Below, piece by piece: positions 5,986 to 52,151 of a DNA stretch of 64,000 nucleotides. Positions within the stretch are counted from its first letter, which is position 1, and the number at the start of each line of letters is the position of its first letter. The notes beneath the pieces are model-generated. The model was not told where the DNA came from and searched no databases. It saw only the letters and a list, made by a program, of their open reading frames with translations. The stretch covers positions 1 through 64,000 of the forward strand of contig NZ_JAERTY010000001.1 in NCBI RefSeq assembly GCF_016746095.1, in the 5' to 3' direction. A program made the position numbers and the translations under genes. Origin of the DNA: Sphingobacterium faecale. Its GTDB lineage: Bacteria > Bacteroidota > Bacteroidia > Sphingobacteriales > Sphingobacteriaceae.

Positions 5986-7149
5986 CTACATCCTCCGCTT
6001 ATAAATACGATCTACAATCACCGCTATCGCGCCATCTCCGGTGACATTACAGGCGGTACCAAAACTATCCATAGCGATGTAGAGGGAAATCATCAGTGCT
6101 TGGCTCGGTGCATCGAATCCTAGCATAGAAGCGATTACTCCTATAGCGGCCATGATGGCCCCACCGGGTACTCCAGGAGCGGCAATCATGGTGACACCGA
6201 GCATGCAGATGAAACCGGCCATTTGGAAGGTATCGATAGGCATACCCTGCATCAGCATCAAAGCAACAACGCAGGCGACAATCTTGAGCATACTCCCTGC
6301 GAGATGGATAGTTGCACAGAGGGGTACCGTAAAATTGGCAATATCTTCCGCTACACCGGCTTTCTTGGCTTGTGCTAAGGTGACCGGAATGGTGGCTGCA
6401 GATGACTGCGTCCCCAGAGCGGTGAAATAAGCAGGCATCATGGTCATCAGTAGACGAAAGGGATTCTTTCGGCTGATAAACCCAGCTATGGTAAACTGTA
6501 TAATCAAGAGAAGAATATGCATGGCAAAAATAACACCGATGATCTTGATGAATACATCCAATATCATTCCGACTTTGCCTGAATAGGTCATATCCAGAAA
6601 TATACCGAAAATGAAGATCGGAAGAATAGGAATGATCAGCTTCTCGATCAAGAAAGAGATTATCTTTTCAAAATCAATGGCTACCCGTTCTAACGTAGAA
6701 TTTTCTAAACGTGCTAAGCCGATACCGATAAGAAAGGCGAAAACCAGTGCGCTCATCACATCAAACAGAGGAGGGAAGCTAAGCGTGAAATAAGGGGAGA
6801 GTGTTTTTGTTGATTCTTCAATGGTACCAGCAGCCTGTCCATTGATCAATGAAGGAAATACGGCCATACTACCAAAATAGGAAGAGAAACCGGCAAATAG
6901 AGTAGATCCATAAGCTATTCCAACGGTGATCAGCAGGAGGCTACCAGCTGTCTTGCCTAGTTTAGCAATAGCAGGGATAATTAATCCCACTATGATCAGT
7001 GGGATCAAAAATTTAAGCAGTTGGTCGAATAGAGAATTGAAGGTCGTAAAAATACGACCTAATGATTCCGGTATGATATAGCCTGCACCTATACCTAATG
7101 CAATAGCAACGACAATGCGAAAGAGGAGGTTGTTTGTAATCTGCTTCAT
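5986..7149 (-). CDS. Dicarboxylate/amino acid:cation symporter
   Basis: A 387-residue polytopic inner-membrane carrier of the DAACS (glutamate transporter homologue) family. Multiple hydrophobic segments run through the protein. The re-entrant loop region is represented by TALGTQSSAATIPVTL (the serine-rich hairpin), and the substrate/cation region by the late AMDSFGTACNVTGDGAIAV, where the family has NMDG..NV..D. It probably imports a C4-dicarboxylate or an acidic or small amino acid with sodium or protons. It begins 12 bases after the stop of the M3 peptidase gene, so the two are probably co-transcribed. A role in taking up released amino acids is a reasonable inference only. Confidence 0.88.
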   Translation of the reverse strand: MKQITNNLLFRIVVAIALGIGAGYIIPESLGRIFTTFNSLFDQLLKFLIPLIIVGLIIPAIAKLGKTAGSLLLITVGIAYGSTLFAGFSSYFGSMAVFPSLINGQAAGTIEESTKTLSPYFTLSFPPLFDVMSALVFAFLIGIGLARLENSTLERVAIDFEKIISFLIEKLIIPILPIFIFGIFLDMTYSGKVGMILDVFIKIIGVIFAMHILLLIIQFTIAGFISRKNPFRLLMTMMPAYFTALGTQSSAATIPVTLAQAKKAGVAEDIANFTVPLCATIHLAGSMLKIVACVVALMLMQGMPIDTFQMAGFICMLGVTMIAAPGVPGGAIMAAIGVIASMLGFDAPSQALMISLYIAMDSFGTACNVTGDGAIAVIVDRIYKRRM

Positions 7150-7161
7150 CGGTTTATGCTG

Positions 7162-9192
7162 TTATTTTAGTAAGCCTGCTCTTCTTAATAACGGCTCTAC
7201 CTGCGGTGCCTGACCTCTAAAACGTAGATAGAGGTCCATAGGATGCTCTGTGCCTCCTTTGGAAAGAACGGTATCCTTGAATTTTGTAGCGACTTCTCTG
7301 TTGAATATCCCATGCTCTTTAAAGTAGGCAAATGCATCGGCATCGAGTACCTCAGCCCACTTATAGCTGTAGTATCCGGACGAATAACCTCCGTTGAAGA
7401 TATGGGAAAAACTTGGGCTCATGGCATTCTCGGCGACATCGGGATAAAGCTTTGTGGAGGCAAACTCTTGGTTTTCGAAAGCCTTAAGTGATGTGATGGT
7501 GGTCGGATCGGCTCCATGCCAACCCATGTCTAATAGACCGAAACTAATCTGTCTTAAGGTAGCCATTCCTTCTAGGAAGGACGCGGATTCTTTGATCTTC
7601 TCGACCAGTTCCATAGGGATATTCTCGCCGTTCTGGTAATGTTTGGCAAATAAAGCCAAGGCTTCCTCTTCATAGCACCAGTTTTCCATGATCTGGCTCG
7701 GCAGCTCCACAAAATCCCAATATACCGATGTCCCTGATAATCCAGGATACGTGGTGTCGGCCAGCATGCCGTGTAGGGCATGACCAAATTCGTGGAATAG
7801 GGTGGTGACCTCCTGGAAAGTGAGTAATGAAGGTTTGGAGACAGTAGGGCGTGTAAAATTGCATACGATAGATACATGCGGACGTTCTTCAGTATCTTGA
7901 TAACGGTACTGGGGTTTGAAAGAAGTCATCCAAGCGCCATTACGTTTGCCTCTGCGTGGGAAAAAGTCGGTATAAAAAACAGCGACTAGCTCACCGGCTT
8001 CATTGCTGACTTCAAAGGTCCGGACTTCTTCGTGGTACTTATCGATGTTGTATATTTCTTTGAAATGTAGACCATATAGACGCTTTGCTATTTCGTAGGC
8101 TCCGGCCAAAACTTTTTCTAATTGAAAGTAGGGTTTTAACTTCTCGTCGTCCAGATTAAAGCGTTCTTGCTTTAGTTTTTCGGAATAGTAGGCTCCGTCC
8201 CATTTTTCAAGTTGGGTAATGCCATCGCGTTTTTTTGCAAAATCAGAAAGCTCTTGGAACTCGCGCTGTGCTGCTGGTTTGGCTTTTTCTAATAAGTCAG
8301 CTAAAAATTCGTTGACTTTGTCCGGAGACTGTGCCATGCGTTCTTCTAGCACAAAATGGGCATGGGTCTTGTATCCCAGTAGTTGCGCTCTTCTGAATCG
8401 GAGCTGAGCGATCTGGATTACATGCTCTTCATTGTTGTAATCATTGTCCTGAAATGCTTTACGTCCTGCCGCTAATGCCATCTCACGGCGTAGTTCGCGA
8501 TTGTCGGCATAAGTGACAAAGGGAATATAGCTCGGGTAGTCTAATGTAAATAACCATCCTTGTTTATCTTGACTCGCAGCTAATGCTGCTGCGGCTTCGA
8601 TTACACCTTCGGGCAGTCCGGAGAGATCAGCCTCGTTCTCGATCAATAGTTGGTATGCATTGGTTTCGGCTAGTACATTTTCACCAAATTTTAACTTTAG
8701 AATAGCGAGTTCTGTATCAATTTTACGGAGTTCGTCCTTGTCCTGCCCTTCCAATAGTGCACCATTACGTGCAAAGTCTTTATACGATTTCTCTAGTAAG
8801 GTATACTGTTCTGCTGTGAGGTCTAGATTTGCACGTTGGTCATATACCTGCTGTATGCGTTTGAAAAGGTCAAAGTTGAGCGTGATATCATTGCTCAGTT
8901 CGGAGAGTTTTGGAGCTATTTCCTGTGCGATCTTTTCGAGTTCGTCATTTGTCTCGGCCGAATGCAGGTTGAAGAATATGCTGGATAAACGGTCTAAAGT
9001 CATGCCCGAAAAGGCCATGGCTTCTATCGTATTTTCAAATGTAGCCGAAGCGGGATTGTGTACGATGGCGTCTACCTCATCTTTTGTTTTTTGGATGGCT
9101 TCTTCAAAAGCTGGGATATAATCTTCGTTCTTTATGTGTGAAAATGGCGCTGTATTGTGCAGCGTGTCAAATTTGTTCGTTAGTATTGCCAT
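7162..9192 (-). CDS. M3 family oligopeptidase (Dcp/PrlC-like)
   Basis: A 676-residue zinc metallopeptidase of family M3 (thimet oligopeptidase/peptidyl-dipeptidase Dcp/oligopeptidase A). The catalytic motif HEFGH is at 467-471, and the third zinc ligand is expected in the downstream ELPSQIMENW stretch. The helical N-terminal half and length fit the family. There is no signal peptide, so it is a cytoplasmic enzyme trimming short peptides. Dcp and PrlC types cannot be told apart by reading. The downstream symporter gene follows by 12 bases. Confidence 0.93.
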   Translation of the reverse strand: MAILTNKFDTLHNTAPFSHIKNEDYIPAFEEAIQKTKDEVDAIVHNPASATFENTIEAMAFSGMTLDRLSSIFFNLHSAETNDELEKIAQEIAPKLSELSNDITLNFDLFKRIQQVYDQRANLDLTAEQYTLLEKSYKDFARNGALLEGQDKDELRKIDTELAILKLKFGENVLAETNAYQLLIENEADLSGLPEGVIEAAAALAASQDKQGWLFTLDYPSYIPFVTYADNRELRREMALAAGRKAFQDNDYNNEEHVIQIAQLRFRRAQLLGYKTHAHFVLEERMAQSPDKVNEFLADLLEKAKPAAQREFQELSDFAKKRDGITQLEKWDGAYYSEKLKQERFNLDDEKLKPYFQLEKVLAGAYEIAKRLYGLHFKEIYNIDKYHEEVRTFEVSNEAGELVAVFYTDFFPRRGKRNGAWMTSFKPQYRYQDTEERPHVSIVCNFTRPTVSKPSLLTFQEVTTLFHEFGHALHGMLADTTYPGLSGTSVYWDFVELPSQIMENWCYEEEALALFAKHYQNGENIPMELVEKIKESASFLEGMATLRQISFGLLDMGWHGADPTTITSLKAFENQEFASTKLYPDVAENAMSPSFSHIFNGGYSSGYYSYKWAEVLDADAFAYFKEHGIFNREVATKFKDTVLSKGGTEHPMDLYLRFRGQAPQVEPLLRRAGLLK

Positions 9193-41274: not shown

Positions 41275-42609
41275 GTGAATAGAGTACTCATAATTGACGA
41301 TGAAGATAAGCTGAGACAGCTGATGGCCAAAATCATTGGTCTGGAAGGTTTTGAAGTTTTTCAGGCCGATGATATCAAATCGGGATTAAAACGGTTGGAC
41401 TTGACTGATATCGATGTCGTAATCTGCGATGTAAAGCTACCTGATGGAAGCGGTGTCGATACCGTAAAACTCATAAAAGATAAGCATCCCTATGTAGAAG
41501 TTATACTATTGACCGCTTATGGTAATATACCGGATGGTGTACAGGCTATAAAGAACGGTGCGTTTGACTATATCACTAAAGGTGATGATAATAATAAAAT
41601 AATTCCACTTCTATACAAAGCTTATGATAAGGCTTCTCTAGCTAAGAAGGTCAATCAACTGGAAAATCGGTTAGTGAAAAAGTATGCCTTTGAAAAAATC
41701 GTTGGTAAATCAAAAGTATTACAACGGACTATTGAATTGGCTAAAAAAGTTGCGAGAACAGACACGACGGTGTTGTTGACTGGAGAGACGGGTACGGGAA
41801 AAGAGGTTTTTGCGCAATCTATACATCAGGAAAGTAACCGTTCGAAAGCGAGTTTTGTAGCGATCAATTGTTCTGCCTTCAGTAGGGAACTATTGGAGAA
41901 CGAACTCTTTGGACATCGGGCAGGTGCTTTTACGGGAGCAAATAAAGATCAGAAGGGCTTATTTGAGGAGGCACATAAAGGCACTATATTCCTGGACGAG
42001 GTAGGAGAAATGGCGCTCGAATTACAGGCCAAAATACTCCGTGTGCTGGAGACAGGTGAATTTCTTAAAGTTGGAGATTCTAAGCCTACTAAAGTAGATG
42101 TCCGTATTATTGCGGCGACGAATAGGAATCTCGAAGAAGAAATAGCGAAGGAAACTTTTCGTAGTGATCTTTTTTATCGGCTGTCTGTCTTTGCTATTCA
42201 TCTGCCAGCGTTGAGGGAGCGAAAGGAAGATATCAAAGACTTAGCACTTCACTATACGCAGGATTTTTCATTAAAAGCTGGGAAGAAGCCACTGTACATA
42301 ACGGATGAATACCTTTCCGCATTACAGCATAGCGAGTGGAAAGGTAATATCAGGGAGTTGAAGAATGTAATCGAACGTAGTGTTATTTTGTCTGATGGGC
42401 ATACCCTGGAAGTGGGAACATTACCTTCGGACATGCAAGGTGAAGGAATAAAGGTAACGACGACATCTGCTATGTCGCTGTCCGAAATGGAACGCGTACA
42501 TATACACAAAGTATTACAACATACCGGTGGTAATAAAGCAGAAGCAGCACGTTTGCTGGAAATCGGTGCAGCAACGCTGTACCGAAAAATAGAAGAGTAC
42601 AAACTATAG
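41275..42609 (+). CDS. NtrC-type sigma-54 response regulator of kdp
   Basis: A 444-residue response regulator beginning at GTG. The receiver domain holds phospho-acceptor D52 in VVICDVKLPDGSG. The AAA+ domain has Walker A GETGTGKE (170-177) and the sigma-54 contact motif GAFTGA (217-222). The C-terminal Fis-type helix-turn-helix is about 410-444 (NKAEAARLLEIGAATLYRKIEEY). It lies immediately before the kdp genes, where E. coli has an OmpR-type KdpE, so it is expected to take over the KdpE role with sigma-54. A terminator separates it from the structural genes, so the latter have their own promoter. Confidence 0.93.
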   Translation: MNRVLIIDDEDKLRQLMAKIIGLEGFEVFQADDIKSGLKRLDLTDIDVVICDVKLPDGSGVDTVKLIKDKHPYVEVILLTAYGNIPDGVQAIKNGAFDYITKGDDNNKIIPLLYKAYDKASLAKKVNQLENRLVKKYAFEKIVGKSKVLQRTIELAKKVARTDTTVLLTGETGTGKEVFAQSIHQESNRSKASFVAINCSAFSRELLENELFGHRAGAFTGANKDQKGLFEEAHKGTIFLDEVGEMALELQAKILRVLETGEFLKVGDSKPTKVDVRIIAATNRNLEEEIAKETFRSDLFYRLSVFAIHLPALRERKEDIKDLALHYTQDFSLKAGKKPLYITDEYLSALQHSEWKGNIRELKNVIERSVILSDGHTLEVGTLPSDMQGEGIKVTTTSAMSLSEMERVHIHKVLQHTGGNKAEAARLLEIGAATLYRKIEEYKL

Positions 42610-42645: not shown

Positions 42646-42672
42646 AGCCTATCATTTTGATAGGCTTTTTTT
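42646..42672 (+). terminator. Terminator after the response regulator
   Basis: AGCCTATCA and TGATAGGCT pair perfectly around TTT, followed by TTTTTT. It lies 36 bases past the regulator stop and isolates it from the kdp genes. Confidence 0.88.
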
Positions 42673-42740
42673 GTGCCTTTATTATTTCTAGATATTGTTT
42701 TTTGTTGTATTACAGTTGTTTGTGTGTTTTTGTTCGTCCT

Positions 42741-42757
42741 TGGAATGAGCTTTGGCA
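42741..42757 (+). promoter_or_regulatory. Possible sigma-54 promoter of kdp, imperfect
   Basis: TTGGAATGAGCTTTGGCA resembles the sigma-54 consensus TTGGCAC-N5-TTGCA, but GG and GC are separated by 11 bases rather than 10. It lies about 27 bases upstream of the first kdp-cluster start codon. Support comes mainly from the sigma-54 activator next door. Confidence 0.35.
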
Positions 42758-42783: not shown

Positions 42784-42867
42784 ATGATGTCAATTATTTT
42801 ATTAGTACTGGGACTTATCTGTTTTGCACTGCTATTTAAATCAGTCTCTTTTTTTGATAAAATCTAA
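42784..42867 (+). CDS. 27-residue membrane peptide, KdpF-like position
   Basis: A very short frame encoding one hydrophobic helix (IILLVLGLICFALLF) with a charged tail (FFDKI). It starts just after the terminator and candidate promoter and precedes the two unknown genes by 15 bases. Size and shape are KdpF-like, but a better kdpF lies directly before kdpA, so this may be a second small subunit or a leader peptide. Confidence 0.5.
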   Translation: MMSIILLVLGLICFALLFKSVSFFDKI

Positions 42868-42882
42868 TAACAGAAACTAGAA

Positions 42883-43221
42883 ATGGAAACCAAAATCAAA
42901 AACACTTTGCAACAGTGGATTCCAGGAATCCAGGGGTGCATAGAGACCGTATCTGATTATGAGTTACTGCATCAATTGGCCAGTTCTTGTATCCATAGAA
43001 TTCATCTGGGGACGGAGGAAGATCTTATTTGGGTGGAAGATATCGCTAAAGTGGTTAATGTCTTGTATCAGAGTGGTAATAGGTATACTAAAAATGCGAT
43101 TGAAAACGAGTTTTTATGTGAGCTGGTACAAGAAGAATGTCCTGCAAGTCTTAAGCTGCATATGAACCTACTTCCCAAAGAGCTTAGAAAGGAATATTTG
43201 AAAGTCATTTTAGAAAACTAA
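42883..43221 (+). CDS. Unknown kdp-cluster protein X
   Basis: A 112-residue soluble protein, predicted largely helical, with no signal peptide or membrane segment. The stretch SGNRYTKNAIENEFLCEL (about 64-81) is shared with the next gene (SGNRYIRYLIENLVVRSF), and the following LLPKELRKEYLKVILE aligns with its GIPVQLQHIYQRQTAE. The two are therefore paralogues over about 65 residues. The stop codon overlaps the next start by one base (TAATG). Embedding in the kdp operon suggests a role in potassium uptake, its control or its assembly. I do not recognise a family. Confidence 0.75.
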   Translation: METKIKNTLQQWIPGIQGCIETVSDYELLHQLASSCIHRIHLGTEEDLIWVEDIAKVVNVLYQSGNRYTKNAIENEFLCELVQEECPASLKLHMNLLPKELRKEYLKVILEN

Positions 43222-43610
43222 TGGCAATGAAAAAGATCGACGAAGAAAATATCGCACATTATTTGGCCGGTGATTGTAAAGAAATAGAAGAAGAGATACA
43301 GCAGTTGTTACGTAAACGGAATCTCGCAGGTGTGTTGCAGGCTGTAGTTAACTTTTTAAGAAACCTATTGCATCATAATAGGCTTCCAGAGGTATTAGCC
43401 CACCTTCAATTTTTGGCCCGTTTACACCGTAGCGGAAATCGGTACATACGCTACCTGATTGAGAATCTAGTCGTTCGCTCCTTTGAAGGATTAAAAAGAC
43501 AGTGTCAGCAAGGACAATGGGAGTCTCTCTATGCAGGTATTCCTGTACAGTTGCAGCATATTTATCAACGGCAGACTGCCGAGAACTTAATTCAAAAATT
43601 AAAACGATGA
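43221..43610 (+). CDS. Unknown kdp-cluster protein Y, paralogue of X
   Basis: A 129-residue basic, helical, apparently cytoplasmic protein. Its C-terminal half is homologous to protein X (SGNRYIRYLIEN). The N-terminal half (ENIAHYLAGDCKEIEEEIQQ) has no counterpart I recognise. It is translationally coupled at both ends: one base overlap with X, and ATGA overlap with kdpF. That placement points to co-expression with the transporter at matched stoichiometry. No function can be named. Confidence 0.75.
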   Translation: MAMKKIDEENIAHYLAGDCKEIEEEIQQLLRKRNLAGVLQAVVNFLRNLLHHNRLPEVLAHLQFLARLHRSGNRYIRYLIENLVVRSFEGLKRQCQQGQWESLYAGIPVQLQHIYQRQTAENLIQKLKR

Positions 43611-43684
43611 TCATCCTATTTATTGCAGCGATTGCAGTGTTTGCTTATATCGCCTACGTATTACTCAATCCCGAAAAATTTTAA
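43607..43684 (+). CDS. kdpF: KdpF small subunit
   Basis: A 25-residue single-helix peptide ending in YVLLNPEKF, the pattern (Y-x-L-x-x-P-E-x-F) typical of KdpF, which stabilises the KdpABC complex in the inner membrane. It begins in the ATGA overlap with protein Y and lies 22 bases before kdpA. Confidence 0.85.
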   Translation: MIILFIAAIAVFAYIAYVLLNPEKF

Positions 43685-43706: not shown

Positions 43707-45395
43707 ATGAACACCGAAATTTTAAGTGTCGTCATTCTATTTCTGCTAACAGTCATTCTTGCAATTCCCTTGGGAAAGTATATTGCTAGCGTATATAGTG
43801 GCGAAAGAACCTTGTTGGATAAGGTATTGGGGCCGTTGGAAAAGCTCTTTTTTAAGTTCAGTGGCATTGATTCCTCCAAAGAGATGGGATGGAAGCAACA
43901 AATGATCGCTATGCTGACCATTAATATGGTTTGGTTTATCATAGGGATGCTCTTGCTGATGACGCAAGGCTTTTTACCGCTCAATCCGGATGGTAATCCG
44001 AGTATGTCTGCGGATTTAGCTTTTAATACGACTATATCTTTTGTGGTTAATTGTAATCTACAACACTATTCTGGAGAGACTGGAGTGAGTTATCTCGCAC
44101 AGTTGTGGTTGATGTTTTTGCAATTTGTCAGTGCAGCAACTGGATTGGCGTCGGCAGTGATTGTATTCAGGGCTTTTCGCGAGAAGACTGTAACGGCATT
44201 GGGTAATTTTTACAACTATTTTGTGTTGTCCTGTACACGCATACTATTGCCGACATCACTTCTGGTAGCGGTGGTGCTTATTTTTCAAGGTACACCGATG
44301 ACTTTTGAAGGAAAGGATACGATACGGACATTGGAAGGGCAGACCGTTGAGGTTTCCCGTGGACCCGTAGCTGGATTTGTCGCGATAAAACACGTTGGGA
44401 CCAATGGTGGAGGTTTCTTTGGCACAAATGGGGCACACCCGTTTGAAAATCCGACATACCTAACCAATATGCTGGAGATGATGGCACAGATGATTATTCC
44501 GCTGGCTATGTTGTTTGCCTTTGGATATTTTACCAAGAGAGTACGCTTCTCATGGATGATGTTTTCGGTGATGACCTTTGGTTTTCTGATGCTGGTCATT
44601 CCTAATATATATATGGAGATGAAGGGAAATCCAGCGATATCAGAAATGGGAGTCAATACTGATCTAGGGGCTACGGAAGGAAAAGAAATACGTATTGGAG
44701 CAGCAGCGTCAGGTTTTTGGAGCATAGCTACTACGGTGATTTCCACTGGATCGGTCAATAGTATGCATGATAGTACCATGCCTTTGTCCGGTATGAATGA
44801 GCTGTTGGCGATGATGATTAATAGTTTTTATGGCGGCGTAGGTGTTGGTATTTTAAACTTCTTCATTTTCGTCATATTGGCGGTATTTATCAGTGGTTTG
44901 ATGGTGGGGCGTACGCCGGAGCTTTTTGGTAAAAAAGTAGAGGCCCGTGAAATGAAGATTGCGATGGTCATAGCGTTGATACACCCTTTCCTTATCCTGG
45001 TCGGCACGTCTTTATCTGCAGCGTTTCCAGCGTTGACCGCAGATACATTGAATAATACCGGATTCCATGGTTTTAGCGAGATGCTGTATGAATATACTTC
45101 TGCCTCGGCTAATAATGGGAGTGGTTTTGAAGGTTTAGGAGATAATACGCTGTGGTGGAATATCAGTACAGGAATTGTTCTGATCCTGAGCCGGTTCTTA
45201 CCTATTATTGGACCTGTGGCTATTGCCGGATTGATGGCCGAAAAGAAATTTATCCCCGAAGGAGAAGGGACTTTAAAAACCGATACAGCCACATTTGGTG
45301 TGATGATTTTTACAGTTATCATGATTGTTGCAGCATTGGCGTTCTTCCCTGCTTTGACTTTAGGACCGCTTGCTGAATACTTTTCAATGCGTTAA
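43707..45395 (+). CDS. kdpA: Potassium-transporting ATPase subunit A
   Basis: A 562-residue channel-like subunit, homologous to SKT-type potassium transporters, with about ten membrane segments. Filter-region stretches are visible as [39 protein letters not shown] and [18 protein letters not shown]. The frame extends 28 codons upstream through kdpF, but ATG 43707 (MNTEILSVV) matches the family start. Length is normal for KdpA. Confidence 0.96.
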
Positions 45396-45412: not shown

Positions 45413-47482
45413 ATGGAAACTAATAAATCCTTGTTTCAAGGAACTATGATAAAAGATGCGGTTAAGCAATCTTTCATAAAGCTAAGCCCTGCGCATATGT
45501 ACCGTAATCCTATTATGTTTACGGTCGAAGTGGGGACACTTATTATGTTGTTGGTCTGTATCTGGATTGCTTTTGGCAAACAGGGGCAAGGCAGTCTGGT
45601 ATATAACTTTGTCGTATTTGTCGTACTGTTGCTGACCTTGCTGTTTGCAAATTTTGCAGAAGCAATAGCGGAGGCACGAGGTAAGGCTCAGGCGGATAGT
45701 TTGCGGAAGACGCGTGAAGATACACCAGCAAAGTTAGCTGATGGGAGCGAGGTTTCGTCTTCGACATTACGTAGAGGAGATCTGTTCTACTGCGTGGCGG
45801 GTGATGTGATTCCATCCGATGGAGAGATTGTCGAAGGGCTGGCTACCATTGACGAAAGTGCTATTACTGGGGAGTCGGCTCCTGTAATCCGGGAGGCCGG
45901 TGGAGATAAAAGCTCCGTGACGGGAGGTACCAAGGTGTTATCGGACCGTATCGTAGTGCGGGTAACAGCTCAGCCTGGGGAGAGCTTTCTGGATAAAATG
46001 ATTGCCTTGGTAGAAGGTGCGAGTCGTCAAAAGACACCGAATGAAATAGCGTTGACTATTCTGTTAGCTGGATTTACGCTTGTGTTTATTTTGGTGACAG
46101 TTACATTAAAACCTTTTGCAGACTATGCGAATGTACCTATTACTATTGCATCGTTTATTGCGCTTTTTGTGTGTCTAATTCCTACTACGATTGGAGGATT
46201 ACTGTCAGCGATCGGTATTGCCGGAATGGATCGGGCATTGAAAGCTAATGTAATTACGAAGAGTGGTAGGGCGGTAGAGACCGCAGGTGATATCGATGTG
46301 TTATTATTGGATAAAACAGGGACAATAACTATCGGCAATAGGAAAGCAACTCATTTTTATCCTGTCGACGGCGGCAGTAGTGCTGCTTTGATAGAAGCAG
46401 CCTTGTTGAGTTCAGTAAATGATGAAACTCCGGAAGGAAAATCCATCGTGGAATTGGCTGCGGCTACGGAACATGCCAAGATCTTGACGGATAAGGAGCG
46501 TGTTGCCTATCTGAAAGGTGATGTGCCTGTGTTTGAATATCGCTTGTCCCAACTGAATTTTATTCAATTTACAGCAGAAACCCGCAGCTCGGGGGTGGAT
46601 GTCGACAGCAGAAAAATACGTAAAGGTGCAACAGACGCAATGCGGGCTCAGGTGGAAGCCGCTGGTCATGTATTTCCTTTGGATGTGCTGGAGCGTGTAA
46701 AAACAATTGCGGAAAATGGTGGAACTCCACTGGTAGTTACGGAAAATAGTACTCCCCTCGGCGTGATCGAGTTACAGGATATTATTAAGACGGGGATACA
46801 AGAACGATTTGAGCGGCTGCGTAAAATGGGCATCAAGACGGTGATGGTCACAGGGGATAACCCGCTGACAGCCCGGTATATCGCTGAAAAGGCCGGTGTA
46901 GATGATTTTATAGCGGAGGCGAAGCCTGAGGATAAGATGAACTATATAAAAAATGAACAGATGGCGGGTCGATTGGTCGCGATGATGGGGGATGGTACAA
47001 ACGATGCTCCAGCGCTGGCACAGGCTGATGTGGGGGTAGCGATGAACAGTGGTACTCAAGCTGCCAAAGAAGCTGGTAATATGGTTGATCTGGATAACGA
47101 CCCGACCAAACTTATCGAGGTCGTAGAGATTGGAAAACAGTTGTTGATGACTCGAGGTACCCTGACTACGTTTAGTATTGCTAATGATGTGGCTAAATAT
47201 TTTGCTATTATCCCCGCTTTGTTTGTTGCAGCGATTCCTGCTTTGCAGGGACTCAATATTATGCGTCTGCATAGTCCAGAGAGTGCTATACTCGCAGCTG
47301 TTATTTTTAATGCGTTAGTGATTCCTATTCTGATTCCATTGGCTTTAAAAGGAGTCGCCTATAAGCCTATCGGAGCGAGTGCATTGTTGCGGAGAAATCT
47401 ATTGATATATGGACTTGGAGGAGTATTGGTTCCTTTTATTGGGATTAAGCTTATTGATATAGTTCTTTCGCTATTCTTTTAA
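45413..47482 (+). CDS. kdpB: Potassium-transporting ATPase subunit B
   Basis: A 689-residue P-type ATPase catalytic subunit. The phosphorylation motif DKTGT is at D300, in [18 protein letters not shown] in ITGESAPV lies in the actuator domain. The hinge motif is [19 protein letters not shown]. Three groups of membrane segments are in place. It starts 17 bases after kdpA. All catalytic motifs are intact. Confidence 0.97.
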
Positions 47483-47618: not shown

Positions 47619-48188
47619 ATGAAAACAAATATATTACCCGCTATAAAACTGACGCTCGCTCTGCTCGTCTTGTTTGTTGTAGCCTATCCAGTATTACTAT
47701 GGGGGATAGGTCAATTGTCTAATGGTAAAGGAAAAGGAGTTGTCGTTGTGCAGGATGGAAAAACCTATTATAAAAATATCGGACAGTCTTTCAAGGAGGC
47801 GAAGTATTTCTGGTCTAGACCCTCGGCTGTAGATTACAATGCAGCTGGATCAGGAGCTAGCAATAAAGGTCCCAATGAAGAAGCATATCTTGCTACCGTA
47901 GAGCAACGGATTGCTGATTTTTTACAACAGAATCCTGGTGTGAGCGTTTCAGATATCCCTGTAGATTTAGTCACTGCCAGTGGTAGCGGTCTCGATCCTC
48001 ATATTTCTGTAGCAGCAGCGCGTGTACAGGTAGCGAGAATAGCGCAACAGCGCAATTTGAAGGAGACGCAGCTCATGACACTCATTGGTGATCATGTCGA
48101 GCAGCCTCTTTTAGGCTTATTAGGACCAGAAAAAGTAAACGTACTGATGCTTAATTTGGCTTTAGATAGTTTGGATAGCTCATTTTAA
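47619..48188 (+). CDS. kdpC: Potassium-transporting ATPase subunit C
   Basis: A 189-residue subunit with one N-terminal membrane helix (LALLVLFVVAYPVLLWGIGQL) and a periplasmic domain including FKEAKYFWSRPSAVDYNA and SGSGLDPHISVAAARVQVARIA, a KdpC hallmark. The frame is open 33 codons upstream to 47520, but the family start is ATG 47619 (MKTNILPA). A 136-base gap from kdpB remains, longer than elsewhere in the cluster. Confidence 0.95.
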   Translation: MKTNILPAIKLTLALLVLFVVAYPVLLWGIGQLSNGKGKGVVVVQDGKTYYKNIGQSFKEAKYFWSRPSAVDYNAAGSGASNKGPNEEAYLATVEQRIADFLQQNPGVSVSDIPVDLVTASGSGLDPHISVAAARVQVARIAQQRNLKETQLMTLIGDHVEQPLLGLLGPEKVNVLMLNLALDSLDSSF

Positions 48189-48200
48189 GGAATATAGAAG

Positions 48201-49241
48201 ATGAAGAGTATTGCTGTTTTGATGGGAACAATGTTTTGCTGTAGCCTGTCTATGGCTCAGGATAATAGGGAGATACGGATCGGAGGGTATGCTGAAATCT
48301 ATTATCAGCATGATTTTGATGCTGCTAAATCGAATCAAAGGCCTAACTTTATATATAGCCATAATAGGAATAATGAGGTGAGTTTAAATCTGGGAATGGT
48401 GAAGGTATCTTATAGGTCGGAAGGTGTGCGGGCTGATTTAGCGCTCGGAGTGGGGTCTTATATGAATGCCAATTATGCGGCAGAACCGGATGTGCTGAAA
48501 AATATCTATGAAGGTCATATTGGTGTTCGCCTTTCCAAAGCACACGAACTGTGGCTAGATGTAGGGGTGCTCCCCTCTCATATCGGAGCCGAAAGTGCGG
48601 AAGGGGTGAATTGTCCAACATTGACGAGGAGTATAATGGCTGAAAATTCTCCTTATTTTGAAACGGGAGCTAAGCTGTCTTATCAAACACGGAATGAAAA
48701 ATGGCAGATGGCATTATTGGCACTCAATGGCTGGCAACGGATACAGCGAATAGATGGAAATACAACACCTGCATTTGGGCATCAATTGACCTATCTACCA
48801 TCCGATCGTTTGATACTGAATAGCAGTTCTTTTGTCGGCAATGACCAACCGGACAGTACCCGACAGATACGTTATTTTCATAATCTGTATGGGCAATATC
48901 AATGGAGTGAAAAAATTAATTTTACGGCAGGCTTCGATGTGGGTACACAGCAGAAAAGCAAAGGGAGCAATAGGTATTATCAATGGTATACAGCAGCTTT
49001 GATTGTGCAGTATAAATTCCATGACAAAATGGCGATGGCTGGGCGGACGGAGTATTATAAAGACCGTCATGGAGTAATCCTTTCGACAGAGGATCCTAAA
49101 GGCATGGAGTCTTTTGGGGCATCGGTCAATGTGGATTATCAAATATTGCCCAATCTGGTCTGGAGGACAGAGGTTAAAGATCTGGTGCTGCGGGGCAGGC
49201 AGCACTGGAGTGCGCTGAGTGCCTTGGCTGTCAGGTTTTAA
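48201..49241 (+). CDS. Outer-membrane porin of the kdp cluster
   Basis: A 346-residue beta-barrel protein with a signal peptide (MKSIAVLMGTMFCCSLSMAQ). Alternating strands such as EIRIGGYAEIYYQHDF near the N-terminus and the LPNLVWRTEVKDLVLRG ending resemble the OmpL-like beta-barrel porin-2 family. Its place between kdpC and the sensor suggests a dedicated outer-membrane entry route for potassium. That is inference from position. Confidence 0.82.
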   Translation: MKSIAVLMGTMFCCSLSMAQDNREIRIGGYAEIYYQHDFDAAKSNQRPNFIYSHNRNNEVSLNLGMVKVSYRSEGVRADLALGVGSYMNANYAAEPDVLKNIYEGHIGVRLSKAHELWLDVGVLPSHIGAESAEGVNCPTLTRSIMAENSPYFETGAKLSYQTRNEKWQMALLALNGWQRIQRIDGNTTPAFGHQLTYLPSDRLILNSSSFVGNDQPDSTRQIRYFHNLYGQYQWSEKINFTAGFDVGTQQKSKGSNRYYQWYTAALIVQYKFHDKMAMAGRTEYYKDRHGVILSTEDPKGMESFGASVNVDYQILPNLVWRTEVKDLVLRGRQHWSALSALAVRF

Positions 49242-49266: not shown

Positions 49267-50388
49267 ATGGAAGAAAATAAACGGGCTGAACATTTTTTAG
49301 AGCTGATTAAAAAATCGAGAAGAGGCAAATTTAAACTCTATATAGGAATGAGTGCTGGTGTAGGCAAAACCTATAGAATGCTACAGGAAGCTCATGGTCT
49401 GCTGAAGAATGGGATCGATATCAAAATCGGATATATAGAAACGCACTTTCGTAAAGAGACTCATGCGCTTCTGGAGGAACTGCCTGTCATCCCACGTAAG
49501 CGTATGTTTTACAAAGGCAAGGAGTTGGAAGAAATGGATCTGCAAGCGATCTTGTCGGTACGCCCTGAGGTGGTGATCGTTGATGAACTGGCGCATACTA
49601 ATATGGAGGGAAGCGCCAATGAAAAGAGATGGCAGGATGTAATGGACATCCTTACTGCAGGAATCAATGTGATCAGTGCGGTGAATATTCAGCATATCGA
49701 GAGTCTTAATGATGAAGTGCGTGCTATTACAGGTGTAGAAGTCAGAGAGCGCATACCGGATAGTGTCGTAGCTTTGGCCGATGAAGTGGTTAATATCGAC
49801 CTTACTGCGGAGGAGTTAATTGATCGGCTGAAAGCAGGAAAAATCTATGATCAAAATAAGGTAAATACGGCCTTAATCAATTTTTTTAAAAGTGGTCATA
49901 TCCTGCAGTTGCGGGAGCTGGCGCTCAAAGAGGTCGCTTCACAGGTACAACGTAAAGTCGAAACGGAAGTCGCTCCGTTGCGTACGTTAAGAAAAGAACG
50001 TCTTCTGGCCTGTATCAGTTCGAACGAAAAAATAGCTCGGACCATCATCCGTAAAACGGCGCGATTGGCAAATTATTATAATGCGGTATGGTATGTGCTA
50101 TATGTACAGACTGCAAAAGAAGGGGTGGACAAGATAGCGCTGGATAAGCAGCGCTATCTTATCAATAATTTTAAGTTGGCGACGGAACTGGGGGCGGAAA
50201 TCATAAAAATAAAAAGTAACGGTATCACACAGGCTATTCTTTCTCAATGCGAAGAGAGGAAGATAACGACGGTATGTATCGGAAAACCTCGTATAAGTCT
50301 GTTCCGGATTATTCTGGCGACAGATACGTTCAATACCTTATTAAACAAACTGTCTAAAGAGCATATAGATTTGGTGGTGTTGAGCTAG
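49267..50388 (+). CDS. KdpD N-terminal sensor protein (stand-alone)
   Basis: A 373-residue protein corresponding only to the cytoplasmic N-terminal part of E. coli KdpD. The KdpD domain (about 18-230) has Walker A-like GMSAGVGKT (27-35) and VDELAHTN. A universal-stress-protein-like domain (about 245-373) follows, ending in VLS, with no membrane segments or kinase core. It must act through another protein, most simply the adjacent HAMP-PAS kinase 29 bases downstream. Confidence 0.9.
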   Translation: MEENKRAEHFLELIKKSRRGKFKLYIGMSAGVGKTYRMLQEAHGLLKNGIDIKIGYIETHFRKETHALLEELPVIPRKRMFYKGKELEEMDLQAILSVRPEVVIVDELAHTNMEGSANEKRWQDVMDILTAGINVISAVNIQHIESLNDEVRAITGVEVRERIPDSVVALADEVVNIDLTAEELIDRLKAGKIYDQNKVNTALINFFKSGHILQLRELALKEVASQVQRKVETEVAPLRTLRKERLLACISSNEKIARTIIRKTARLANYYNAVWYVLYVQTAKEGVDKIALDKQRYLINNFKLATELGAEIIKIKSNGITQAILSQCEERKITTVCIGKPRISLFRIILATDTFNTLLNKLSKEHIDLVVLS

Positions 50389-50417: not shown

Positions 50418-52151
50418 ATGAAGATGAACATAAAAGCAAAAATTACCTTTGGGGTAGGGTTGTTGTTCTTCCTTATTGTATTGCTTGCTGCGGTTAGCGG
50501 TTGGTATGTCAATCAGTTGAAAAGAGATACGAACAATATATTGGTGGCTAATTATAATACCCTGCTGTATGCCAATAACATGTTGGCTGTGCTGGATGAG
50601 CTGGACACAGATCCGGTCGCCGTGAGCCTTTTTAAAGAAAATCTGGATAAGCAGCTGCTTAATATGACGGAGGTGGGAGAGAAAGAAGCGACCCAATTAA
50701 TTTTGGAACACCTACAGGCGTTGGAGAAAAAACCGGATGACATTCTGTTGGTTGCGGCTATTCGTACTGATATTACCGGTTTAATGCGTCTTAATATGGA
50801 AGCTATACAACGGAAAAGTGATGTAGCGGGTGATACTGCCCATCACGCTATCGTTATTATATCCATTACAGGAGGACTGTGTTTTCTGATTGCTTTTGTT
50901 TTATTGGTCAATCTTCCTTCTTCTATCGCTAACCCGATTACGGAGCTCTCTGAAAGTATCAAGGAGATAGCTAATCAAAACTATAAGAAACGTGTATTCT
51001 TTTCAGGACATCGTGAGTTTGGTGAGCTGGCTGATTCCTTTAATACGATGGCTGAGAAACTGGAAGAGTATGCCGACAGTAAGCTGGATAAGTTACTGAA
51101 AAGTAAGAAGCGTATAGAAACGCTGATCGAACGCATGCATGATCCGGTTATCGGGACAGACGAACAAGAATACGTTTTGTTCGCGAATGAGCAGGCCTGT
51201 AAAGTAACAGGTATGAAAAAGGAGGAGCTGCTCGGAGCATCGATCCGGGATCTGGCATTGCATAATGATTTATTGCGTGATGTCTATCGTGATTGGAACA
51301 AAGAGCAAGAGCGCTCGGGGAATAATAAAGTGCTAAAGATATATGCGGATAGTAAGGAAAGCTACTTTGAGCAAGAGTTGGTCGATATAGGTATTGTTCC
51401 AACGGGAGAAAGTCAGGAACAGTTTATAGGGCGGGTGATTCTGTTGAAGAATGTTACGGCCTTTAAAGAGATGGATCTGGCGAAGACTAATTTTATCGGA
51501 ACAGTATCCCATGAATTTAAAACTCCGATTGCTTCTATAAAATTAGGGGTCCAATTATTGGAGAATAGACAGGTCGGTGAATTGAATGACGAACAGACAA
51601 ACCTGGTGTCGGGTATTAAGGACGATTTACAGCGTTTATTGGATATCACGGGTGAGCTGTTGAATATGGCGCAGGTCGAAAGTGGCGCTATACAGATGAA
51701 TGTTGCTTTGGCTGAGGTTAGGCCTATTGTCGAATATGCGGTTGAAGCCAATCGGGTAGTGATGGAGCAACGACATATAAAGATGGATGTGGCCATTGAT
51801 CCGGTAGTTACCACAGTGAGGGCAGACTCAGAGAAAACGGCTTGGGTGTTGACAAATTTGTTGTCCAACGCGTTGCGCTATTCGCACGATGAGTCGATTG
51901 TCTATATTCATGTCTATAGCAAAGAGGGAAAAGTCTGGTTTTCGGTAAGGGACACCGGACAGGGGATACTACCAGAGTATATGGATAAAATTTTTCACCG
52001 CTATTTCAGAGTACCCGGCTCTAAAAAAGAAGGAACTGGATTGGGGCTGAGTATAAGCAAAGAGTTTATCGAAGCACAAGGCGGAGAGATTATTGTGGCG
52101 AGTGAGTATGGGGTAGGGAGTGTATTCTCTTTTTGTCTTAAGATGAGTTGA
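50418..52151 (+). CDS. HAMP-PAS sensor histidine kinase of kdp
   Basis: A 577-residue membrane kinase. Two membrane helices (about 9-29 and 144-166) frame a short periplasmic segment. A HAMP domain follows (about 165-220; NPITELSESIKEIANQNYK), then PAS (about 235-350), HisKA with phosphorylated H365 in TVSHEFKTPIASIK, and HATPase with GTGLGLSISKEFIEAQGG. It probably phosphorylates the NtrC-type regulator upstream of kdp, replacing the kinase half of a classical KdpD. Confidence 0.92.
   Translation: MKMNIKAKITFGVGLLFFLIVLLAAVSGWYVNQLKRDTNNILVANYNTLLYANNMLAVLDELDTDPVAVSLFKENLDKQLLNMTEVGEKEATQLILEHLQALEKKPDDILLVAAIRTDITGLMRLNMEAIQRKSDVAGDTAHHAIVIISITGGLCFLIAFVLLVNLPSSIANPITELSESIKEIANQNYKKRVFFSGHREFGELADSFNTMAEKLEEYADSKLDKLLKSKKRIETLIERMHDPVIGTDEQEYVLFANEQACKVTGMKKEELLGASIRDLALHNDLLRDVYRDWNKEQERSGNNKVLKIYADSKESYFEQELVDIGIVPTGESQEQFIGRVILLKNVTAFKEMDLAKTNFIGTVSHEFKTPIASIKLGVQLLENRQVGELNDEQTNLVSGIKDDLQRLLDITGELLNMAQVESGAIQMNVALAEVRPIVEYAVEANRVVMEQRHIKMDVAIDPVVTTVRADSEKTAWVLTNLLSNALRYSHDESIVYIHVYSKEGKVWFSVRDTGQGILPEYMDKIFHRYFRVPGSKKEGTGLGLSISKEFIEAQGGEIIVASEYGVGSVFSFCLKMS

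Follow-up and report, generated by a model that had tools for sequence, protein, structure and literature searches.

Two paralogous DUF7674 proteins as candidate accessory factors of a Bacteroidota-type Kdp potassium pump

Kdp, the emergency potassium pump of bacteria, is a P-type ATPase system familiar from textbooks, and its components, F, A, B, C, D and E, are regarded as fixed. Here, we describe two small genes, X and Y, that precede kdpF in a Sphingobacterium Kdp locus and encode members of DUF7674 (PF24722), a Pfam family without a stated function. In their own genus, X and Y are nearly always found with the pump; therefore, they are probably helper or control components of it that have escaped notice. 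We tentatively favor a reading in which X and Y assist the Kdp system of the Bacteroidota type as small accessory proteins, soluble and all-alpha, and adjust the pump after translation, while Y-type proteins also act outside Kdp. The basis for an accessory role consists of the family, the paralogy, the position of the genes, their co-occurrence with kdp and the identity of the cassette across orders. As far as our literature searches go, the link between DUF7674 and Kdp is new: DUF7674 was not mentioned in the literature searched, no Kdp accessory proteins like X and Y appeared by title among the matches listed (one search was swamped by the sugar acid KDPG), and kdp did not occur in the available parts of PMC12316311 and PMC9723704.

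The window, i.e., the whole stretch of 64,000 nucleotides that was analyzed, contains a complete Kdp locus on the plus strand, from the response regulator through the histidine kinase, with the following features:

41275..42609, plus strand, sigma-54-type response regulator (receiver, AAA+ and Fis helix-turn-helix domains; Pfam)
42647..42672, plus strand, terminator-like hairpin (8-bp stem, 3-base loop, T7) between the response regulator and the kdp operon, found by eye
42740..42757, plus strand, sigma-54-like promoter element TTGGAATGAGCTTTGGCA, with a spacing 1 base longer than the canonical GG-N10-GC
42784..42867, plus strand, mp, a 27-aa single-transmembrane micropeptide with a conserved tail of about K-S-I/V-D-F-F-E/D-K-I
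42883..43221, plus strand, X, DUF7674, 112 aa (PF24722, 60.4 bits; stop codon TAA at 43219-43221)
43221..43610, plus strand, Y, DUF7674, 129 aa (PF24722, 62.9 bits; ATG at 43221-43223)
43607..43684, plus strand, kdpF, 25 aa (PF09604, 28.6 bits; cut-off, 21.2)
43707..45395, plus strand, kdpA (PF03814)
45413..47482, plus strand, kdpB (TGES at residue 152, DKTG at residue 300; named by place and motifs)
47619..48188, plus strand, kdpC (likely start at 47619, open frame from 47520; named by place)
48201..49241, plus strand, outer-membrane porin, BBP2 (PF07642; Pfam)
49267..50388, plus strand, stand-alone KdpD N-terminal (serine-kinase) domain (PF02702, 304 bits)
50418..52151, plus strand, separate HAMP-PAS histidine kinase (Pfam)

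The two overlaps pointed out in an earlier, sequence-only reading of this DNA are present: the stop codon of X and the ATG of Y share position 43221, and Y and kdpF overlap by ATGA at 43607-43610. X, Y and the kdp genes are presumably carried on a single transcript. The response regulator is probably the stand-in for KdpE, and 24 of 31 sampled kdp loci have a homologue 5' of kdpA in the same orientation. The hairpin between this gene and the operon is absent from the calls of a consensus terminator scan. A sigma-54-like motif occurs in 55 of 105 kdp upstream regions (7.0 expected from mononucleotide shuffles; the loci are partly redundant) and was not found in the other 50. kdpF scores below the cut-off of TIGR02115 (NCBIfam). 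The genes that we take to be kdpB and kdpC were assigned by their place and by features typical of these proteins; kdpC has homologues at the equivalent place in the six cross-order cassette loci described below. Based on Pfam and NCBIfam, KdpD is encoded by two genes in the window, i.e., the N-terminal domain, which keeps Walker A (GMSAGVGKT, residue 27) and Walker B (VIVDE), and the separate histidine kinase.

The sequence-only reading had recognized no family for X and Y; however, both exceed the Pfam cut-off for PF24722 (60.4 and 62.9 bits versus 27 bits), with X matching positions 2-106 and Y positions 2-108 of 111, and they are the only two DUF7674 matches above the cut-off in their genome. 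The paralogy that it proposed and the shared SGNRY...IEN segment on which it was based both stand. Comparing X with Y by BLASTP gave a match of 15 residues (9/15 identical; E 4e-4 in a single comparison), a second match of 10 residues carrying no weight, and a profile-profile comparison of the X family (20 sequences) with the Y family (18 sequences) gave a probability of 94.5 and an E value of 7.9e-8 over 70 columns. In a FastTree phylogeny of 123 relatives, the Sphingobacterium X proteins and the Y proteins, the latter together with Chryseobacterium Y-types, fall on separate branches among the branches listed. From their sequences, X and Y appear to represent two paralogous branches of DUF7674 that separated long ago. 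Purifying selection acts on both, with a pN/pS of 0.11-0.17 against two close relatives. All 70 scanned relatives match PF24722 at E <= 1, in a set that was gathered with an HMM of such sequences and is, therefore, not independent. Among the PADLOC profiles for anti-phage defense, X and Y match no family, and in PHROGs nothing is better than E 0.35. Two other candidate matches were rejected: baeRF_family7 in Y (E 0.001, below its cut-off and in 2 of 70 members) is noise, and the profile matches to PDB sequences (best E values, 5.5e-4 and 3e-3), mostly designed or other helical proteins by name, reflect composition. In one relative (L031, 547-1887), DUF7674 forms the N-terminal part of a 446-aa protein that by eye resembles a metallophosphoesterase.

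AlphaFold2 models, based on alignments of 70 and 59 sequences for the single chains, are confident and all-helical for Y (pLDDT 89.8, pTM 0.83) and X (pLDDT 87.5, pTM 0.79), and the helix order is similar in the two; X and Y would be soluble. A Foldseek search with Y against the PDB returned 41 matches at E <= 10, the best at E 4.3, and thus no usable match. VIA returned generic alpha-superhelical domains, near unrelated rows, with Z up to 6.0 for Y and 6.7 for X, values that are within the noise stated for helical models and may mean a common arrangement only. A protein-binding scaffold would be the natural, albeit unproven, reading of these models.

The sequence-only reading held that X and Y are strictly coupled to the transporter genes. 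In Sphingobacterium, this is nearly the case. Among 93 genomes, 64 carry kdpA, 64 carry DUF7674 and 62 carry both, and in all 62 a DUF7674 gene lies no more than 2.5 kb 5' of kdpA on the same strand. The 29 genomes lacking kdpA contain two DUF7674 matches, both below the cut-off. Of 123 DUF7674 matches in the genus, 35 (in 24 genomes) have no such upstream link; judged by coordinates, the one in G479 would be joined to kdpA across the origin, provided that the contig is circular. Similarly, in 150 genomes of genus g8, which is probably Flavobacterium, 56 carry kdpA, 54 carry DUF7674, 51 carry both and 50 have the two linked upstream; among the 56 kdpA genomes, five lack a DUF7674 match and one more (G694) carries DUF7674 elsewhere. 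The association of DUF7674 with kdpA gives Fisher p values of 8e-19 (Sphingobacterium) and 2e-30 (g8), which ignore shared ancestry. As would be expected for subunits of KdpFABC, the DUF7674 genes both co-occur with kdp and lie inside the operon, in 62 of 64 kdpA genomes of Sphingobacterium and 50 of 56 of g8. One of the two Sphingobacterium kdpA genomes lacking an intact DUF7674 gene is G415 (L134); by eye, a Y-like remnant of ~50 aa, internally shortened, is visible there ~400-250 bases before kdpA.

Across the phylum, the picture is mixed. In a sample of 395 Bacteroidota genomes, DUF7674 was present at E <= 1e-3 in 37 (33 over the cut-off) and KdpA in 112; the E <= 1e-3 counts, here and in Sphingobacterium, include sub-cut-off matches in long open frames (e.g., G263 and G267 here, G457 and G475 in Sphingobacterium) that we did not take for family members. 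By coordinates read by eye, DUF7674 lies directly 5' of kdpA in 19 of the 37 genomes, and in a genome of another family (G253) it lies inside the kdp operon between the porin gene and kdpD. Altogether, DUF7674 is part of the kdp operon in 20 of the 112 kdpA genomes (19 upstream and G253 further down); thus, Kdp as such does not require DUF7674.

The tie breaks down in Chryseobacterium (g6), in which DUF7674 occurs in 148 of 148 genomes and kdpA in 144 of 148, so that co-occurrence has no power and is uninformative. Each of the six g6 genomes within the phylum sample carries a pair of an X-type and a Y-type gene away from kdpA; based on coordinates, at least nine g6 genomes have DUF7674 adjoining kdpA (G538, G548, G553, G572, G573, G576, G584, G595 and G618). 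Of 157 Y-family relatives found in named genomes, 80 were kept; the fetched stretch contained kdpA in 28 and no kdpA in 52. The latter comprise 45 loci with X'-Y and seven with Y alone, and by title 46 are from Chryseobacterium (of 51 such loci kept), three from Elizabethkingia, two from Sphingobacterium and one from a member of the Weeksellaceae. Hence, the coupling proposed from the sequence is close in two genera and is not strict, homologues lying mostly outside kdp clusters in some genera, with the pair mostly unlinked in Chryseobacterium and Elizabethkingia, and clearly not so in the genus of the window. Three 99%-complete Chryseobacterium genomes lacking kdpA (G513, G542 and G589) have one DUF7674 copy each, of the Y-type, and none of the X-type; a kdpA-less g6 assembly that is 73% complete (G603) has two copies, and G491 and G527, in which kdpA is present, have the Y-type only. 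From this small sample, we suggest that the X-type goes with Kdp and that the Y-type has a further role. Other DUF7674 proteins are encoded in unrelated gene settings, and DUF7674 genes stand beside GNAT acetyltransferase genes in L117 (6077-7448), L114 (8407-9729) and L071 (9576-10597).

The gene content of single loci bears on the suggestion that X and Y form a heterodimer. Among 65 Sphingobacterium kdp loci, 25 encode X and Y, 23 only Y, 15 only X and two neither, counts in which a strongly diverged partner could be missed. The gene orders are mp-Y-kdpF (23 loci), mp-X-Y-kdpF (16, including two with an apparent X-mp-Y order that arose from mistaking a long open frame for X), mp-X-kdpF (13), Y-mp-X-kdpF (9) and X-kdpF (1), and one locus has a broken X (G412, in which the kdpA frames are also broken). 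The partner of a single-gene locus is encoded elsewhere in the genome in G398, G399 and G478 (Y-type) and in G401 (X-type). With only X or only Y in 38 of 65 loci, an obligate heterodimer is disfavored; rather, these counts suggest that each of the two can work without the other and stand in for it in part, i.e., that they are modulators. Of the proposed accessory pair, the accessory part is plausible from the place in the kdp cluster, the paralogy and the tie to kdpA, and no heterodimer is needed.

A cassette shared across orders also bears on the tie of X and Y to Kdp. Six loci share the response regulator, a block before X, X, Y, kdpABC, the porin gene, the KdpD N-terminal domain and the histidine kinase, namely those of Chryseobacterium koreense (L318), Sphingobacterium alimentarium (L319), Weeksella massiliensis (L320), S. 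composti (L321), Bacteroidetes bacterium 47-18 (L322) and Pedobacter chinensis (L323); mp is present in the shorter loci corresponding to them. C. koreense and Weeksella belong to the Flavobacteriales, and Pedobacter and Sphingobacterium belong to the Sphingobacteriales. The DNA of W. massiliensis and S. alimentarium is 88.2% identical over 18.1 kb; that of C. koreense matches S. alimentarium at 91.8% across 7.7 kb and at 88.8% across 4.9 kb, with the response regulator and the block at 82-84%, and S. composti at 85% across 11.8 kb. Overall, the cross-order pieces span about 77-92%. Within Sphingobacterium, the window aligns with S. alimentarium in pieces only, at about 72-77%. Identity is thus higher between orders than within Sphingobacterium, and this comparison of cassette DNA points to movement of the cassette between orders. 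The block before X in S. alimentarium encodes TrkA, TrkH and an NhaA-type antiporter, so that the cassette holds ion homeostasis genes, in the order response regulator, TrkA, TrkH, antiporter, mp-X-Y-kdpFABC, porin, KdpD N-terminal domain and histidine kinase. In the DNA flanking it (cassette and flanks together, L319 41-19862) are genes for a TraG-type coupling protein, for RteC and for a helicase, which would fit a conjugative transposon, presumably one related to CTnDOT. X, Y and 3 kb of the cassette all lacked a match in a plasmid collection. The retention of X and Y in such a setting is evidence that they serve Kdp.

How might X and Y act? According to PMC11018627, the N-terminal domain of Escherichia coli KdpD is a serine kinase that phosphorylates KdpB at Ser162 and inhibits the pump, and species exist in which KdpD/Usp and the histidine kinase are on separate chains. 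An inhibitory KdpD kinase that is detached would need positioning and gating. We propose that X and Y would dock onto the Kdp machinery from the cytosol, the likeliest partners being KdpB/KdpF, the neighboring mp and the stand-alone KdpD serine-kinase domain. As soluble adaptors made of helices, they would attach either to the pump, through KdpB, KdpF or mp, or to the detached kinase and thereby tune inhibition; the binding, its target and the direction of the effect are steps that we infer. Counting against this model, the KdpD N-terminal domain and the histidine kinase occur at window-like spacing in 27 of 31 sampled loci, including loci without DUF7674.

Alternatively, X and Y could be signaling adaptors that tie the detached KdpD serine-kinase/Usp protein to the HAMP-PAS histidine kinase or the sigma-54 regulator and so control transcription and not the pump, a reading that we regard as unlikely. 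The division of KdpD into two genes in the window fits it, as do histidine kinases 49-60% identical to that of the window in loci of genera that carry X/Y (L051, L053, L054 and L057-L061), compared with mostly 32-46% in loci of genomes without a DUF7674 match. However, this pattern may be mere phylogeny: L041 encodes a histidine kinase of 51% identity but no DUF7674, while the DUF7674 genomes G099, G261, G253, G014 and G283 have histidine kinases of only 24-43%. The 27 of 31 loci mentioned above, compared by the spacing of the homologues, argue against this reading as well, and X and Y adjoin kdpF and not kdpD, except in G253.

The position next to kdpF would also suit proteins that help the tiny hydrophobic subunits KdpF and mp to assemble or to insert into the membrane, i.e., a role in pump biogenesis and not in regulation. 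X or Y immediately precedes kdpF in 63 of the 65 Sphingobacterium loci, and the 4-base overlap of Y and kdpF seen as ATGA in the window is found in 14 of the 65; however, many species have mp and kdpF without DUF7674, and we consider such a role decidedly unlikely.

We find it improbable that X and Y have no functional tie to Kdp, with DUF7674 being a general or immunity-like domain whose genes hitch-hike in the cluster. Divergent DUF7674 genes are found among unrelated small genes (e.g., in L121 and L123), three of 70 members weakly match a PoNi immunity profile (best E 0.0022), and Y-type genes persist without kdpA in Chryseobacterium. Against this stand the co-occurrence with kdpA in two genera, the conserved place and the one cassette across orders. 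Moreover, the neighbors in the window are kdp genes and their regulator: no toxin gene, as might accompany an immunity protein, lies beside X and Y in the window, where the flanking genes are those for the response regulator, mp, kdpF and kdpA.

Finally, it is very improbable that the DUF7674 proteins are partners or targets in a GNAT-centered module in which the acetyltransferase modifies Kdp or its regulators: a DUF7674-GNAT-DUF7674 trio with 4-base overlaps is present in L117, a second GNAT paralogue in ten Sphingobacterium genomes is flanked by DUF7674 genes in seven and lies 8.8-14.9 kb 3' of kdpA on the same contig in nine, and G253, from another family, has DUF7674-GNAT inside its kdp operon, but the trio is found in only seven of 93 genomes, two DUF7674 genes stand without GNAT in L125 (G466), and the match to GNAT in 91 of 93 genomes, kdpA-less ones included, together with the three GNAT genes (G466, G414 and G458) that have no DUF7674 in their 1.5-kb flanks, makes the link suggestive only.

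The micropeptide mp is encoded in 63 of 65 Sphingobacterium kdp loci, in 25 of the 31 sampled loci L033-L063 (24 by pattern, which counts several loci from the same genomes, and one by HMM), many of them without DUF7674, and in one of 20 loci of more distant phylum members. Its tail reads approximately KSIDFFEKI, and its substitutions are mainly synonymous (pS 0.48 and pN 0.09 over 164 pairs), consistent with purifying selection. No Pfam or NCBIfam family, including PF09604 and TIGR02115, matches mp; it may already figure in the work on a small membrane protein finder in PMC10903887. Further small peptides with hydrophobic stretches are encoded within kdp operons, in L319 at about 7047-7190, 7746-7934 and 8456-8647 and in L048 and L038 upstream of mp; their places are before mp, between X and Y, and before kdpA.

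As a bolder model, which we consider possible but doubtful, the Bacteroidota Kdp pump may be larger than KdpFABC, with mp and one or two DUF7674 proteins as regulatory subunits that would replace the tight control by KdpD lost on its splitting and that in some lineages would be tuned by a dedicated GNAT, the cassette moving between orders and at least once on a conjugative element. The Kdp system of the window comprises at least three conserved gene products beyond the usual set (mp, X and Y), together with KdpD in two parts and a regulator of the sigma-54 type, and it seemingly travels as a cassette. DUF7674 thereby gains a first testable role, and the locus lets one ask what governs the serine kinase of KdpD when kinase and sensor are separate.

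Compared with known systems, X and Y are unrelated to KdpF. mp and KdpF (PF09604) are both short single-transmembrane peptides of the same size that are encoded with the pump near the same place; however, mp fits no KdpF profile. The models of X and Y resemble alpha-superhelical adaptor domains of the HEAT, VHS and MIF4G types in a general all-alpha arrangement, with scores in the range of ordinary helical arrangements that support no assignment to a family. KdpE is an OmpR-type regulator, whereas the regulator in the window is a sigma-54 activator of the NtrC/AtoC type; relative to E. coli KdpDE, DUF7674 and mp are additions. By comparison with the E. coli KdpD serine kinase and KdpDE as described in PMC11018627, the window retains Walker A and B in the KdpD N-terminal domain and TGES in KdpB, while the kinase parts are on separate chains, as they are in some species.
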